Source: Flavobacteriales bacterium
GTDB taxonomy: Bacteria; Bacteroidota; Bacteroidia; Flavobacteriales_F; PHOS-HE28
Length of the DNA: 32,839 nucleotides
Assembly (NCBI GenBank): GCA_017998165.1
Contig: JAGODO010000004.1
Location: 1 to 32,839 of the forward strand
Reading direction: 5' to 3'
Below, piece by piece: positions 15,598 through 23,795 of the stretch. Below the pieces are notes generated by a model. It was not told the DNA's origin. It saw only the letters and a list, made by a program, of their open reading frames with translations, and did no database searches. How positions within the stretch are numbered: the stretch's first letter is position 1; every line of letters starts with the position of its first letter. The position numbers were made by a program, and so were the translations under genes.

Positions 15598-18153
15598 ATG
15601 CTCCGAATCCCTACGCTCACACTCTCACTGGCACTGGCGGTCGTACTTCCCGCCCAGGTCCAGATCGGGGAGAACGAGATGCCCCATCAGAACGATGAGA
15701 TCCATCGCACACGCGCGAACCCGGATCCGACGATCGATTTCGCGACCACAGGTGCTGACCACCAATGGGACTTCATGGACCTCTCGACCGCTTCGGAAGA
15801 TGTCACCGCCTATCAGAGCGTGAGTTCGACCAACATCGTGTATGCGCTCATATACGCGGACATTTTCTTCAATGCCAATCGGGCCAATCACGCCAAGGAA
15901 GGGGTGGACATCCCGTTCAACCAGTTGCTGCCCATCACCAACCCGTTCACCTTCCTCTACCATAGCCCGACCGTTTACCGGAAGGTCGGGTTCGGCGTGG
16001 AGCTTTCCGGGATACCGGTGCCGATCATCTTCAATTCACCTGATGTCATCTACGAGCTTCCGATGGACTATGGCGACGTGAGCGCTTCGAGCTCAGGGTA
16101 TCAGCTGGACATCCCGACACTGGCCTACTACGGCTACGAACAGGAGCGATCCAATGAGGTGGACGGCTGGGGCACCATCGCCACCCCTGCAGGGTCTTTC
16201 GATGTGCTGCGGGTAAAGACCACGATCCTCGCGCATGATACGATCAACCTGGACACCCTGAGCCTTGGCTTCACGATCGACCGACCCGTCATTCGGGAGT
16301 ACAAGTGGCTCGCGCAGGACTTGCGGGTGCCGGTGCTGCAGATCAATACCACCGAGCTGTTCGGTACGGAGATCGCAACGGAGATCTTCTTCTACGACCT
16401 GCCGCATACCATCACCGTGGTACCGCCCCTGGCAGCCACGCTGTGCCCGGGTTCGGAATTCCAGCTGGCCTACGAGGCCACGGGCAGCTACAATGCCGGC
16501 GGGTTCTTCATTCCGTCCAACGAATTCATCGCCCAGCTATCGGACGCGAACGGTGATTTCTCCAACCCTGTTTTCCTGGGCCAGGTGACCGCCACCACAT
16601 CCGGAACGATCACGGTGACCATACCCATGGATACCCCGCTGGGAACGGGCTATCGCATCCGGGTCATCTCCAACAGCCCGGCCTATGTCGGAACGGACAA
16701 CGGCTTCGACCTGATGATCGATGACGCCCAACCTTCCGCTGTTATCTCGGCCAACGGCCCGACGGAGTTCTGTGGTGGCGGCTCCGTCATACTGAGCGCG
16801 GAACCGGTGTCCGGCACTTATCAGTGGCAGCAGGATGAAGTTGATATCGAGGGGGCTCAGAACACCACCTTGGAGGTGACCGTTTCCGGGAACTACTCGC
16901 TTGTAGTAACGAACGCCTGTGGCAGCGATGTCTCGGACCCCATCAGCGTGGTTGTCGGTGACGCCCCCATCTATGCCTTCGACCAACCCGCTTACCTCTC
17001 GTGTGATGGTTCGCCGATCACCATCACCGCAGTGGATATTTCCGGCCAAAGCGACCTCACCTACGAATGGTCGTTGAATAACGTGGTGCTTTCGGGCGAG
17101 AGCGGAACGAGCCTCTTGGCCGCTGAGGCGGGGGCGTATTCGCTCACGGTTATGAACACGGTCACGGGTTGCAGCTACACTGCGGACCCCGTAGAGGTCT
17201 CGATCGACCAGATCGCGACACCCGCAGTGAGCGCTGATGGTCCGGTCGCCTTCTGCGCTGGCGGCTCGGTCACGCTCAGCGTTGAGCCGGTACCGGGCAT
17301 CAGTTATCAGTGGGCGGTGGATGGCACGGACATCGATGGTGCCACAGGGCCGGAGCTTCCGGTGGATCAGGCCGGTTCCTACACGGTGGTCGCAGCGAGC
17401 ACCGGTTGCTCTTCAGCCGCCTCGACCTTCTTGGTGGTGACCGTGCATCCGCTCCCCGAAGTCCCGACCATCACAGGCGTTGCGGCTTTCTGTGCCGGCG
17501 GTTCTACGACGCTGGCCACCGACGACCTGCCCGGGCTTTCGTACGAGTGGAGCATGAACGGCGATTCGATCGATGGGGCGACCGGCACGCTGATCGATGT
17601 CGCCGCCGCCGGGAATTACTCCGTGACCGTTTCAACCACCGAGGGGTGCTCAGCATCCTCAGAGGCCACGACCGTCGTCGAGAACCCGTTGCCCGCCCAG
17701 CCGGTGATCATGCAGATGGATGATGAGTTGATAACCTCGGGAGATGGAACCTTCCAGTGGCTGCTCGAGGGGAACCTGATCGATGGGGCCACCGGAGAAA
17801 CCTATCTGCCCTCGGAGAACGGCAACTACAACGTGATGATCACGGATGCCAATGGGTGCTCGAGCACCTCGGACGCGTTCGCGTACATCAGCACGGCCGT
17901 CGTGGACAGCGATGTGATCGACTTCAGCTTCCATCCCAATCCTTCAAACGGCCAGGTCTTCATCGATCTGCCCTCCGGCATCACGAAGGGAGCGAGCCTG
18001 TTGTTGACCGATGCGGCCGGAAGGAAATTGTCGCAACGCAATGTGTCCGGAACAACGATGACCCTGGAACTCGGGGCCTTCGAAGCGGGGCTCTATTTCC
18101 TGCACCTGCTGAACAATGGAGCGGTCACGACCCATCGCCTGGTGAGGGACTGA
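15598..18153 (+). CDS. T9SS-exported protein with Ig-like repeats
   Basis: This 851-residue secreted protein begins with a signal peptide (about 1-19, ending LPAQ). An unassigned N-terminal region (about 20-280) is rich in beta structure. Ig-like repeats follow: four are clear (from about residues 384, 460, 545 and 622), each with a start like FCAGGSVTLS, a core like YQWAVDGTDIDGATG and an end like GSYTVVAASTGCS. A partial fifth (about 701-765) lacks its first part. The last 76 residues (776-851) are a type A sorting domain: FHPNPSNGQVFIDL, then LTDAAGRKL and LGAFEAGLYFLHLL with a basic end. T9SS should therefore move it across the outer membrane and release or anchor it at the surface. It probably has adhesive or surface functions; no catalytic motif is seen. 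Confidence 0.9.
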   Translation: MLRIPTLTLSLALAVVLPAQVQIGENEMPHQNDEIHRTRANPDPTIDFATTGADHQWDFMDLSTASEDVTAYQSVSSTNIVYALIYADIFFNANRANHAKEGVDIPFNQLLPITNPFTFLYHSPTVYRKVGFGVELSGIPVPIIFNSPDVIYELPMDYGDVSASSSGYQLDIPTLAYYGYEQERSNEVDGWGTIATPAGSFDVLRVKTTILAHDTINLDTLSLGFTIDRPVIREYKWLAQDLRVPVLQINTTELFGTEIATEIFFYDLPHTITVVPPLAATLCPGSEFQLAYEATGSYNAGGFFIPSNEFIAQLSDANGDFSNPVFLGQVTATTSGTITVTIPMDTPLGTGYRIRVISNSPAYVGTDNGFDLMIDDAQPSAVISANGPTEFCGGGSVILSAEPVSGTYQWQQDEVDIEGAQNTTLEVTVSGNYSLVVTNACGSDVSDPISVVVGDAPIYAFDQPAYLSCDGSPITITAVDISGQSDLTYEWSLNNVVLSGESGTSLLAAEAGAYSLTVMNTVTGCSYTADPVEVSIDQIATPAVSADGPVAFCAGGSVTLSVEPVPGISYQWAVDGTDIDGATGPELPVDQAGSYTVVAASTGCSSAASTFLVVTVHPLPEVPTITGVAAFCAGGSTTLATDDLPGLSYEWSMNGDSIDGATGTLIDVAAAGNYSVTVSTTEGCSASSEATTVVENPLPAQPVIMQMDDELITSGDGTFQWLLEGNLIDGATGETYLPSENGNYNVMITDANGCSSTSDAFAYISTAVVDSDVIDFSFHPNPSNGQVFIDLPSGITKGASLLLTDAAGRKLSQRNVSGTTMTLELGAFEAGLYFLHLLNNGAVTTHRLVRD

Positions 18154-18265: not shown

Positions 18266-20050
18266 TCACGCACGCATACCCATGACCAGGATATCGTCCA
18301 CTTGTTCCTGGGCCCCGCGCCACTTGTTCAGCTCTTCGAGCAACAGGCCTTTCTGGCGGTCCATCGGTTTGTCGTGGATGGCCACGAGCAGTTCGCGGAA
18401 ACGGCGATTGAGGAATTTCTTGCCTTTGGGACCGCCGAACTGGTCGGCGTACCCATCACTGAAAATGTAGATCACATCCCCCTTGTGCAGTTGGATGCGG
18501 TGGTCGGTGAATCCGTTCTCTCCGAGCTCGAAACCACCGATGGGACGTTTGTCCGGCGGAAACTGTTGAATGGCGTTGTCGCGGACCAGATAGAGCGGGC
18601 AGTTCGCCCCGGCGTATTCGAGCACCAGGCGATCCGGCTCAAGCGCACAAAGAGCCATGTCCATGCCGTCGCGAACGAACTGGTCGCGATCCTTGTGCAG
18701 CGCCTCGAAAGAAATGCGGTTGAGGTCGCGCAGCACGTCACTGGGCCGTGTATTACCGTGCTCCTTGATCGATTGGTTCAGTCCGTTGTGGCCCACAAGG
18801 CTCATGAACGCACCAGGCACACCATGGCCCGTGCAGTCGACGGCGGCGAAGATCACCTTGTTGTTCACCTTTTCAAGCCAGTAGAAATCACCGCTGACGA
18901 TGTCCTTGGGACGGTAGAGCACGAAGCTGTCCGGGAGCAGTTCCTTTATCCGCTTCTCGGGCGGAAGTATCGACTCCTGTAGACGTTTCGCGTAGCGGAT
19001 GCTGTCCGTCACGTTCTTGTACAGCTCAACGACCTTCCGGCTCTGCCGCTCGACCTCTTCCTTCTGTCGTACCACTTCTTCGGTACGTTCTTTCACTTTC
19101 GTCTCCAGCACGCGCTCGCGTTCGCCGAGTTCTGTGCGCATTTTGAGCAGGGCGTGCCCGAGCATGTCCTCTTCGCTCAACGGCTGGTAGTCCGCGTTGA
19201 AGTTGCCCGCGGCCACAGCGTGGCTGAACTCGGTGGTGCGCTTCAAGCCATCGATCAGACCCATCAATGCCTGCGACATTTCCCCGACCTCATCGTTCCG
19301 TGCATGGATCCGGGTGCGGGGGAACACGCCGCGGCCCAAAGAGAGCAGCACGGTGCGCAGTTTCTGGACCGGCGTGACGATGCTGCGGACGATGAGGAAG
19401 GCCACCACGATACCCACGACGACCAGGCCGGTCCCGAGATAGAGCACGAAGAATTTCAACGAGTCGAAACTGCGGATCATCCCGCCCCCCAGGCTCTGCC
19501 GCTTCGCATCCTGCATCTCGATGAGCTTGTCCACATCCGCGAGGAGAAGCCGGGTGCTCTCATCCAGCGGTCCGCCCTCCTCCGCCAACTCGCCGCGCTC
19601 TATCCACACCAACGGGTCCTTGTAGCTCTCCAAGGAGGGCAGCAGTTCCTTGATATGGTCGTGCATCTCGAAGACCTTGTCCATCTCCGTGAAGCACTTG
19701 TTCAACAGAGCCACTTCGTCTTTCTCCCAGCCCGCGCTCAGGGTGTCGACACGGTCCATCAGCCGCGGCAGGTCATGGTCGGTGAGCTTGATGAGCGCCG
19801 ATTTCTCAGGGGCATCGGGTATGCTCTCCGTGGTCGCCCAGAATTTTGCGAGCATGTGGGCGTTCACCAGCAGGTTCTTCAGACGGACCAGTGCGTCAAC
19901 GCTGGGGCCATAGACCTGCGTGATCTCGTCATTGATCGAGCGGCTGCGCTCCAATGTGCGGTTGGTGAGCAGCACTACAAGCAACGCGAAGAAGATGAAC
20001 AGACCGAAGCCCATTCCGATGCGGCGGCCGATGGTGAGCCTGAGACGCAT
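18266..20050 (-). CDS. Membrane sensor with HAMP and SpoIIE-type PP2C phosphatase domain
   Basis: The 594-residue protein has a transmembrane helix at about 10-29, a helical periplasmic sensor (about 30-200) that resembles four-helix-bundle chemoreceptor domains, a second helix at about 201-222, a HAMP domain (about 222-280), and a coiled coil (about 310-350). It ends in a PPM/SpoIIE serine phosphatase domain from about residue 365. The domain shows SIRYAKRLQESILPP, KDIVSGDFYWLE with the metal-binding Asp, VDCTGHGVPGAFMSLVG, FSDGYADQFGG and QVDDILVMG. Such proteins usually dephosphorylate an anti-sigma-antagonist or STAS partner; none is encoded in this operon. It is the last gene, 6 bases after the TPR gene. 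Confidence 0.9.
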   Translation of the reverse strand: MRLRLTIGRRIGMGFGLFIFFALLVVLLTNRTLERSRSINDEITQVYGPSVDALVRLKNLLVNAHMLAKFWATTESIPDAPEKSALIKLTDHDLPRLMDRVDTLSAGWEKDEVALLNKCFTEMDKVFEMHDHIKELLPSLESYKDPLVWIERGELAEEGGPLDESTRLLLADVDKLIEMQDAKRQSLGGGMIRSFDSLKFFVLYLGTGLVVVGIVVAFLIVRSIVTPVQKLRTVLLSLGRGVFPRTRIHARNDEVGEMSQALMGLIDGLKRTTEFSHAVAAGNFNADYQPLSEEDMLGHALLKMRTELGERERVLETKVKERTEEVVRQKEEVERQSRKVVELYKNVTDSIRYAKRLQESILPPEKRIKELLPDSFVLYRPKDIVSGDFYWLEKVNNKVIFAAVDCTGHGVPGAFMSLVGHNGLNQSIKEHGNTRPSDVLRDLNRISFEALHKDRDQFVRDGMDMALCALEPDRLVLEYAGANCPLYLVRDNAIQQFPPDKRPIGGFELGENGFTDHRIQLHKGDVIYIFSDGYADQFGGPKGKKFLNRRFRELLVAIHDKPMDRQKGLLLEELNKWRGAQEQVDDILVMGMRA

Positions 20051-20056
20051 GGGGCC

Positions 20057-21205
20057 TTACTTGTCCTTGGTCCGCTTGCCAACGCACCACGCCTGCCAGC
20101 GGGTGGATTGTTCCGGGGTGAGCACCGTGCGCAGTTCTTCGATCCGCGCACCGAGATCACCAGGGCCCCCCTTGCGGAAGCGTTCCTGGATGTCGCGTAC
20201 ACGCTCCAGTTGCTCGGAAGAGAGTCCCAGCCCTTTCCAGTCATCCGATGAAGCCATGAGACAGGCTTCATCGGTCCGTGCGTCCAACTGGGGCGAGTTC
20301 TGTCGCGGGGCTTCCGGCACGCCCCCTTCATCGAGCGCTTCGTATTTGTGGCGGTATTCCTCGCTCTTGTCCACGTCCTGCAGGCTGTAATGGATCCCCT
20401 CAAGTCCTAGCAGCGTCTCCCGTCGTTTCGGGTTCATCTCGTGCGCTTTCAACATGTACGGCAGGGCTTGCATGAAATACACCTTGCTCGCCTCCTGCAC
20501 CTGGCCTATCGTGGGCAGGTCGGTCCCCGCATTTATCCGCTGGATGTTGTAGACACCACGGTTGTAATAGAGCGTCGCCAGATTGTAGTTCGCGCCGTAG
20601 TTGTCAATATCCAACTCCAGTACGCGCTTGTACAGGGCGACGGCTTTCGCGAACCACGTGGTGTCTTCCCGGTCCTGGTTGAACCGCTTGGTGTAGACGG
20701 TACCGAGCGCGTTGTCGAACTCGATGTCGCGGGCGGAGAAGGAGTGCTTGGGATCCAGGCGCAGGACGCTTTCCTTGTATTTGGAATAGAGCGCGAGCGC
20801 GCGGGCATCATCCAGCTCATTGAGCGCGCGCGCGGCGTCGTTGTAAGTGGTCTTGCAGAGGTAGTCATAAGCCTGAAGGCTGCTCTGCGCGTATTCCTTC
20901 GCCGTGTCAACGACCGTGCTGGTAAAGAGACTGGCCAGCGCCTCGTCCCGCACCATGTCGGCCTCCGCGCCGCTCGTCATGGTCTTGAAAAGGTCCTTGT
21001 ACACGAAACCGCGCAGGACCCATGCCTCCGGACTGCGGGACAGTTCATCGCCCTTCACCGCCTCATCCAGCAATTTGCGGGCTCCGGCGAGGTCGCCCGA
21101 TTGGTAGAGCCGGTTGGCCTCCACCAACGCTTCCGGCTGGGCAAAAGCGGTGGTCGCGCTCGCGAGCATGACCAGCCACAGGGCGATATGTCGCAAGGTG
21201 CTCAT
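20057..21205 (-). CDS. Exported TPR protein with LTXXQ-like C-terminus
   Basis: The 382-residue protein begins with a signal peptide (MSTLRHIALWLVMLASATTAFAQ). TPR-like helical pairs follow, for example ALVEANRLYQSGDLAGARKLLDEAV, AKAVALYKRVLELDIDNYGANYNLATLYYNRG and MLKAHEMNPKRRETLLGLEGI. Such repeats bind other proteins or peptides. After a linker with a Pro-Gln rich stretch, the last 60 residues include LGLSSEQLERVRDIQERF and ELRTVLTPEQSTRWQAW, two copies of an L-[TS]-x-x-Q pattern as in the CpxP/Spy family of periplasmic stress proteins. The start overlaps the stop of the YfiR-like gene (ATGA at 21202-21205), and the phosphatase gene starts 6 bases after its stop. A periplasmic partner of both neighbours is likely but inferred. 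Confidence 0.82.
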   Translation of the reverse strand: MSTLRHIALWLVMLASATTAFAQPEALVEANRLYQSGDLAGARKLLDEAVKGDELSRSPEAWVLRGFVYKDLFKTMTSGAEADMVRDEALASLFTSTVVDTAKEYAQSSLQAYDYLCKTTYNDAARALNELDDARALALYSKYKESVLRLDPKHSFSARDIEFDNALGTVYTKRFNQDREDTTWFAKAVALYKRVLELDIDNYGANYNLATLYYNRGVYNIQRINAGTDLPTIGQVQEASKVYFMQALPYMLKAHEMNPKRRETLLGLEGIHYSLQDVDKSEEYRHKYEALDEGGVPEAPRQNSPQLDARTDEACLMASSDDWKGLGLSSEQLERVRDIQERFRKGGPGDLGARIEELRTVLTPEQSTRWQAWCVGKRTKDK

Positions 21206-21759
21206 TGCACGGAGGCATATGCGAGCTGCACGAGCGTGCTTCCCACTTCCAATTTGTGCTTTCGCGCGTTCACCAGGCTGATCTCGTACTTCACCGTGTT
21301 GTCGACCCGTACGAAGTTCACCACGGACCCGTCCTCCAGTGCGTCCGGATATTCCGTGATCACCAAGGTGCTTTTCTTGTCCAGGTTCTTGTAGATGGCC
21401 GGGAGAAGGGCCAATTCACCATGCGCAACGAACAGGACATGGCACTGCTCGATGTCGGCGCTCTTGGGCAATTTCCGCACCTCGATGGGTTGTTTGCCGA
21501 TGGACTTCTCGGCGTACTTCTTCACCAGCTCCTGGTACAGATTGCTGCTGCCCAGCACACTGATGATGAAGGGCCCGTTCTTCAGGGAGGGCTCCTTCCA
21601 TTCGACCAGCTTCGATATGTTGTAGATGTAACTGGCCTGTACGATGGCCGTGGTGTCCTTGTCGGCTTCCCGTGGGTCCGTGGCTGCCGAGGCGGTGAGG
21701 AGCAGTAGCAGCAACGCCAGTACTTTCGGTCCGCGGGCGACCGCCACGAAGGGGAGCAT
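21202..21759 (-). CDS. YfiR/DUF4154-family periplasmic protein
   Basis: The 185-residue protein has a signal peptide (about 1-25) and a YfiR (DUF4154) domain. Its marks are YIYNISKLVEWKE, the start of the family fold, PFIISVLGSSNLYQEL, IEVRKLPKSADIEQCHVLFVAHGE with C106 at the family-conserved place, STLVITEYPDALEDGSVVNFV, and ISLVNARKHKLEVGSTLVQLA at the end. In Pseudomonas, YfiR holds the diguanylate cyclase YfiN off in the periplasm. Here no GGDEF gene is nearby; the following genes encode an exported TPR protein and a HAMP-SpoIIE sensor. The ATG at 21759 fits the signal peptide; an ATG at 21789 is possible. It is divergent from the M28 peptidase gene. Confidence 0.87.
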   Translation of the reverse strand: MLPFVAVARGPKVLALLLLLLTASAATDPREADKDTTAIVQASYIYNISKLVEWKEPSLKNGPFIISVLGSSNLYQELVKKYAEKSIGKQPIEVRKLPKSADIEQCHVLFVAHGELALLPAIYKNLDKKSTLVITEYPDALEDGSVVNFVRVDNTVKYEISLVNARKHKLEVGSTLVQLAYASVQ

Positions 21760-23273: not shown

Positions 23274-23795
23274 TCAGCCTTGACGCTCGCCACCCCCGGC
23301 GGATGCGGCGGTCATGCCTTGGAGGTCACGGTCGAAGAGGTAGAGACCGCCCTTATCGCTACCGATCAGCTTCAACTTGTCGATGAGCGTGCGCGCCAAG
23401 GTCTCCTCCTCGATCTGCTCGCTCACGTACCACTGCATGAAGTTGTGCGTGGTGTAGTCCTTTTCCTTCAAGCACAGGTCCACAACCTTGTTGATGCTGG
23501 CAGTCACATGCGTCTCATGGTCCAGTAGGGTCTGGAAAATGTCCGTGATGGACTTGTATTCCTTCTGCGGTTGTTTCAGCGCTGGCACCACCGCTTTTCC
23601 GCCGCGATCGTTCACGAACTTGATGAGTTTCAACATATGGATCCGTTCCTCGTCGCTGTGACGATACAGGAACGCCGAGGTACCCATGAGGCCGTTCGTC
23701 TCCGCCCAACTGGCCATGGCCAGATAGGACTGACTGCTGCTGGCTTCGATCTCGATCTGTGCGTTCAGGGCGGCTTCGATCTTCTTGGGGAGCAT
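23274..23795 (-). CDS. Bacterial non-haem ferritin
   Basis: The 173-residue protein is a ferritin that stores iron in a 24-mer cage in the cytoplasm. The ferroxidase residues match the E. coli FtnA positions: E17, E50, H53, E94, Q127 and E130. Glutamates E49, E126 and E129 of the third site are also present. Sequence pieces such as ASSSQSYLAMASWAE, HSDEERIHMLKL and WYVSEQIEEETLA confirm the family, and the C-terminal tail (TAASAGGGERQG) is glycine-rich and short. The ATG at 23795 lies 20 bases after a perfect TAGCTTTG box. It is convergent with the M28 gene; a 6-base hairpin (23271-23286) spans its stop. It diverges from the metal operon at 24022. Confidence 0.95.
   Translation of the reverse strand: MLPKKIEAALNAQIEIEASSSQSYLAMASWAETNGLMGTSAFLYRHSDEERIHMLKLIKFVNDRGGKAVVPALKQPQKEYKSITDIFQTLLDHETHVTASINKVVDLCLKEKDYTTHNFMQWYVSEQIEEETLARTLIDKLKLIGSDKGGLYLFDRDLQGMTAASAGGGERQG

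Follow-up and report, generated by a model that had tools for sequence, protein, structure and literature searches.

A YfiR-like protein encoded with a SiaA-like membrane phosphatase in a conserved operon of Bacteroidia

The stretch of DNA analysed here (the window; 32,839 nucleotides of contig JAGODO010000004.1 from a Flavobacteriales bacterium) carries a three-gene operon encoding a periplasmic YfiR/DUF4154 protein, an exported tetratricopeptide repeat (TPR) protein, and a membrane phosphatase with a helical sensor, a HAMP domain, and a SpoIIE/PP2C domain. In the YfiBNR system of Pseudomonas, YfiR is a periplasmic brake on YfiN, a HAMP-GGDEF enzyme of cyclic di-GMP (c-di-GMP) synthesis, and binds the periplasmic domain of that enzyme. 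The operon in the window probably constitutes an envelope-to-cytoplasm unit, in which YfiR would be the input docking on the sensor and the SiaA-like phosphatase would act on phosphorylated SiaC (SiaC-P).

Results

The three genes lie on the minus strand and code for YfiR (21202–21759; 185 amino acids with a signal peptide; Pfam PF13689, E = 4.8e-33), the TPR protein (20057–21205; 382 amino acids; Pfam TPR-S PF20308, E = 4.9e-9, and TPR_19), and the phosphatase (18266–20050; 594 amino acids). In the phosphatase, a first transmembrane helix (TM1), the helical sensor, a second transmembrane helix (TM2), HAMP, a coiled coil, and the SpoIIE/PP2C domain (E = 6.4e-21) follow one another. The YfiR and TPR genes overlap by 4 nucleotides (ATGA), and the TPR and phosphatase genes are separated by 6 nucleotides, forming a tight operon. 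The coordinates and the Pfam matches bear out the anatomy proposed in the initial annotation of this DNA. The YfiR start at 21759 is the likely but unproven start of the signal peptide, because the open reading frame stays open upstream as far as 22050.

The neighbourhood survey that the initial annotation had proposed showed the trio to be conserved. Every one of the 34 same-genus neighbourhoods read contains it, as do, within a class sample of 197 genomes (188 of them at least 90% complete), 48 genomes beyond the genus; with the genus included, 21 families are covered. DUF4154 was found in 81 of the 197 genomes, and among the 103 class DUF4154 gene surroundings that were read, 48 were in the trio and 14 had DUF4154 fused to an output domain. 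Such recurrence lies far outside what chance would produce. Named records contained 16 trios, complete or nearly so, all from Bacteroidota and many from Flavobacteriales, and no full-length match to the sensor protein was found outside the class among 247 genomes of the phylum, where other matches covered mainly HAMP and the C-terminal part. In a phylogeny of 127 YfiR domains, 3 changes were required for the trio label (42.6 when shuffled) and 1 for the fusion label. The small number of trio-label changes indicates that most trio YfiRs descend together as a single subfamily.

Natural fusions and exchanged output domains link YfiR to signalling enzymes. Twelve of the class DUF4154 genes encode a signal peptide, DUF4154, a coiled coil, a transmembrane helix, and SpoIIE in a single protein. 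In other loci, YfiR is accompanied by this helical sensor and HAMP joined to hybrid histidine-kinase outputs (L139, L149, L155, and L159; kinase part identified by eye) or GAF/PAS outputs (five named loci, by Pfam), in each case with no TPR gene. YfiR and the sensor are thus the unit that stays together, and the output domain is exchanged. The conservation of the trio, the fusions, and the exchange of outputs on the same sensor make the predicted coupling of YfiR to the phosphatase well supported by genomics. Other fusions were also seen. In locus L109, a second DUF4154 gene, adjoining a DUF4154-SpoIIE fusion, encodes DUF4154 joined via a transmembrane helix to a class III adenylate/guanylate cyclase (PF00211, E = 3.3e-55), and locus L118 encodes a 1072-amino-acid DUF4154 fusion protein that, by eye, contains a PAS/GAF histidine kinase with the motif SHELRTPLN.

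The AlphaFold2 (AF2) model of phosphatase residues 1–345 is all helical (mean predicted local distance difference test score, pLDDT, 87.6), with TM1 running into a helical bundle, followed by TM2, HAMP, and the coiled coil. In this model, the periplasmic sensor comprises residues ~28–205 (19436–19969), and, being helical, it is not a PAS domain as found in YfiN. The sensor is conserved across the class. HAMP corresponds to residues 219–262 (19265–19396; PF00672, E = 3.4e-5, 0.5 bit below the cut-off), and the catalytic domain to residues 397–593 (18272–18862; PF07228, E = 6.4e-21). The metal-binding aspartates D383, D388, D405, D461, D464, D532, D585, and D586 are each invariant in the aligned trio proteins that have a residue at the position (80/80). 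The top Foldseek matches of the sensor were the NarQ sensor and the ligand domains of Vc1313 and MCP2201, all weak (E values of 0.005–0.1). XylFII-LytS (5xsj) and QseG-QseE (9m08), which according to their PDB titles are separate envelope proteins bound to histidine-kinase sensors, were also among the matches. Their outputs are histidine kinases. As the matches are weak (E of about 0.3) and generic to helical bundles, they serve as mechanistic precedent only.

From the persistent pairing of YfiR with this sensor, we infer that YfiR docks on the helical bundle. Two observations weigh against this part of the proposal. The DUF4154-SpoIIE fusions contain neither the helical sensor nor HAMP, and they therefore support the coupling of YfiR and SpoIIE but not the docking site. 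In addition, the mirror-tree partial correlation between YfiR and the sensor (r of 0.20–0.33) was matched by that between YfiR and PP2C (0.34), so the test is unspecific for a YfiR-sensor contact. This lack of specificity, together with the resemblance of the sensor to generic helical bundles such as those of nitrate and amino-acid sensors, would also fit a shared operon in which YfiR and the sensor make no contact, YfiR and the TPR protein jointly serve some process of the envelope or outer membrane, and the phosphatase responds to a different ligand. We regard this explanation as unlikely, since genes of the class join DUF4154 to SpoIIE (12 genes), a histidine kinase (one gene), or a class III cyclase (one gene), and since the pairing of YfiR and sensor survives the exchange of the output domain.

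The catalytic half of the phosphatase points to the SiaABCD system of P. aeruginosa. The protein matched the SiaA model NF038263 over residues 266–593 (E = 4e-70), leaving the sensor half outside the match, with a score of 237 bits that lies below the equivalog cut-off of 700 bits. Its sole sequence match in the PDB was 6k4e (E = 3.8e-36), which we take to be SiaA-PP2C. Among the four SpoIIE proteins of this genome, the trio phosphatase scored highest against the SiaA model, followed by two others that are likewise SiaA-like (189 and 151 bits) and a GAF-SpoIIE protein (contig C60; 27 bits), the last of which resembles Rv1364c and the SpoIIE of B. subtilis among PDB entries. Judged by these profile matches, the trio phosphatase resembles SiaA rather than RsbU.

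In P. aeruginosa, SiaB phosphorylates SiaC and SiaA removes the phosphate, and the phosphopeptide containing T68 is LLYLNTSSIK (PMC7647112). The genome of the window encodes adjacent SiaB (DUF6272, PF19788, E = 1.8e-37) and SiaC (PF09345, E = 2.1e-42) proteins on contig C275 (genome G000), as well as a second SiaC. Comparison by eye showed that the phosphosite motif of SiaC is kept (LEYFNTSSSK). In the class sample, SiaB adjoins SiaC in 28 of 30 loci, and SiaC was found in all 56 trio genomes versus 60 of the 141 others (p = 1e-16, by a statistic that ignores kinship). In locus L116, a SiaC gene (PF09345, E = 2.1e-33) begins 10 nucleotides past the stop codon of a DUF4154-SpoIIE fusion. The numbers of SpoIIE and SiaC per genome are correlated (rho = 0.88, kinship ignored, SpoIIE counts near 15 being minimum values); SiaC is present in 111 of the 113 genomes with three or more SpoIIE and absent from 42 of the 47 with just one or two. 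Many Bacteroidia have several SiaC copies and up to at least 15 SpoIIE domains per genome. These distributions suggest a large network of SiaA-like phosphatases that converges on SiaC without c-di-GMP in Bacteroidia.

SiaC is accordingly supported, on comparative grounds, as a substrate of the trio phosphatase, and a SiaC phospho-switch uncoupled from c-di-GMP is its likely target. Several points weigh on the other side. In this genome, the siaBC pair lies outside the trio operon, and a free STAS protein (PF01740, E = 4.2e-13) offers an alternative substrate. The association of the trio with SiaC follows the wider association of SiaA-like phosphatases with SiaC and hence does not single out this phosphatase. 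One SiaB-SiaC pair located 3.5 kb upstream of a trio (L319) was considered as operonic and rejected, as opposite-strand genes lie between.

STAS proteins are the classical substrates of SpoIIE-family phosphatases, and the initial annotation had proposed control of partner switching and a search for a STAS and anti-sigma partner. Spelled out, this reading has as targets an anti-antisigma factor of the RsbV-like STAS type together with an anti-sigma kinase, and a sigma factor as the output. The phosphatase output stood. A SiaA-like phosphatase, however, points to SiaC and SiaB instead of the generic STAS/anti-sigma pair, and we consider the STAS reading improbable. The search for such a partner in the genome yielded the single free STAS protein, but the GAF-SpoIIE protein, with its low score against SiaA and its PDB matches to Rv1364c and B. 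subtilis SpoIIE, is a better partner for it than the trio phosphatase with its 237 bits. Furthermore, most of the genomes with one or two SpoIIE lack SiaC, and one fusion lies beside SiaC, whereas none was noticed beside STAS, although no systematic search was made. The free-standing STAS gene (L040, 4019–4465, minus strand) adjoins a ribonuclease Z-like gene and may encode the partner of GAF-SpoIIE.

No GGDEF domain was detected in the genome of the window, which is 73% complete. GGDEF occurs in 4 of the 197 class genomes, while the controls were positive in 8 of 14 genomes, as expected. A c-di-GMP output of the trio was rejected on the basis of this near absence from the genome and the class sample. 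The limited completeness of the genome would leave room for the remains of a c-di-GMP control system, its GGDEF enzymes being encoded elsewhere, yet the scarcity of GGDEF across a class sample of mostly near-complete genomes makes this explanation extremely improbable. It is therefore unlikely that SiaC works via a SiaD-like cyclase in this genome, and, as almost none of these Bacteroidia possess a diguanylate cyclase, its output in them would be another target. The proposal that the partner of a YfiR-like protein is here a SpoIIE phosphatase, in place of a GGDEF enzyme, is thus supported by the occurrence of the trio in 21 families, by the DUF4154-SpoIIE fusions, and by the absence of GGDEF from this genome and from 193 of the 197 class genomes.

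The assignment of the first gene product to YfiR is supported by both sequence and predicted structure. Its DUF4154 domain scored 114.7 bits against a Pfam gathering score of 24.9. The nearest named subfamily is NCBIfam NF053591 (TOL_0243 family YfiR-like protein), which it matched with 115.2 bits (E = 2.5e-33), just below the cut-off of 125. In a PDB search with the AF2 model (pLDDT 89.7), the top 15 matches were all P. aeruginosa YfiR chains or complexes, with target TM-scores (template modelling scores) of 0.68–0.77, and substrate-binding-protein folds ranked after them. Among the conserved residues of YfiR are W54, G62, N148-F149, and E159.

The stability of P. aeruginosa YfiR depends on the Cys145-Cys152 disulfide (PMC4655355). 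This dependence, and the invariance of C106 in all 33 genus YfiRs, would be consistent with an idea from the initial annotation, namely that C106 senses redox or envelope stress and sets the phosphatase activity. However, C106 is the sole cysteine in the mature region of the window YfiR, so that a disulfide of the Cys145-Cys152 type is absent and an internal disulfide impossible. In the class, 14 of the 48 trio YfiRs are devoid of cysteine, and 19 of the 48 lack one at the C106 position. Redox sensing by C106 is therefore not supported as a general mechanism, and we consider it very unlikely.

A TPR orthologue adjoins every trio YfiR in the genus and class neighbourhoods. None accompanies the fusions or the versions with kinase or GAF/PAS outputs, and one YfiR-sensor-SpoIIE locus (L207) also lacks it. 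The TPR protein looks specific to the SpoIIE version of YfiR systems; since YfiR pairs with the sensor without it when the output is a kinase or GAF/PAS, it is dispensable for this pairing. These absences led us to reject it as a general YfiB substitute, and its suggested role as the physical link replacing the lipoprotein YfiB found no support in the form proposed. The TPR protein may be an accessory of the phosphatase version and could serve as a scaffold or supply a second input. The window protein has an in-frame C-terminal extension of ~85 amino acids (20060–20317, minus strand), identified by comparison with the other genus and class TPR proteins, which stop near residue 297, and confined to this species. 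The extension has no match in Pfam and contains two LTxxQ-like motifs (LSSEQ and LTPEQ) reminiscent of Spy/CpxP.

Outside the operon, a ferritin gene (23274–23795, minus strand) is the upstream neighbour of the trio. This context is conserved in 31 of the 34 same-genus loci and recurs in 4 of the 48 class trio loci (families f32, f18, and f50). The adjacency is commoner than chance and may point to iron or oxidative stress. Downstream of the trio and convergent with it, the window encodes a secreted 851-amino-acid protein (15598–18153) that contains Ig-like/PKD domains and carries a C-terminal signal for type IX secretion.

Discussion

We propose that YfiR acts as a detachable periplasmic input domain. 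Docked on the phosphatase's helical bundle, it would set the activity of the SiaA-like PP2C domain through TM2 and HAMP, and the phosphatase would strip from SiaC the phosphate added by the kinase SiaB. The state of the envelope would thereby fix the SiaC/SiaC-P ratio. YfiR may be an inhibitor of the phosphatase, as it is of the enzyme in YfiBNR.

The operon resembles YfiBNR (TpbB) of P. aeruginosa in that a periplasmic YfiR-fold protein is encoded with an inner-membrane signalling enzyme containing transmembrane helices and HAMP. It differs in that a SiaA-like phosphatase bearing a helical sensor takes the place of the PAS-HAMP-GGDEF cyclase, the third gene encodes a TPR protein and not the OmpA-like lipoprotein YfiB, and YfiR has no disulfide pairs. 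With SiaABCD it shares a SiaA-type membrane HAMP-PP2C phosphatase and, in the same genome, a SiaB-like kinase and a SiaC with the NTSS phosphosite motif. In contrast to SiaABCD, no SiaD/GGDEF was detected in this incomplete genome, siaBC is separate from the phosphatase operon, and the input is YfiR. We could not find this combination of parts of YfiBNR and SiaABCD described: a literature search returned no text with both YfiR and SpoIIE, and for DUF4154 only the P. aeruginosa YfiR structure paper. Subscription journals lay largely outside this search, and an earlier description is possible.

So far, YfiR has been described as regulating the synthesis of c-di-GMP. Here it stands ahead of a phosphatase, and in related loci ahead of histidine kinases and a nucleotide cyclase; the data recast it as a general periplasmic input protein. 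In many free-living Bacteroidia, judging from gene context, YfiR appears to be the input of a membrane phosphatase rather than a c-di-GMP brake. The analysis also draws attention to a little-studied SiaB/SiaC network in Bacteroidia, in which SiaC occurs without SiaD, to our knowledge the one SiaC effector known from Pseudomonas. We tentatively suggest, with rather less confidence than for the mechanism proposed for the operon, that YfiR-type proteins may be interchangeable, detachable periplasmic inputs that in Bacteroidia drive a c-di-GMP-free network of threonine phosphorylation by SiaA, SiaB, and SiaC, which contains many SpoIIE phosphatases and ends in a possibly new SiaC effector.

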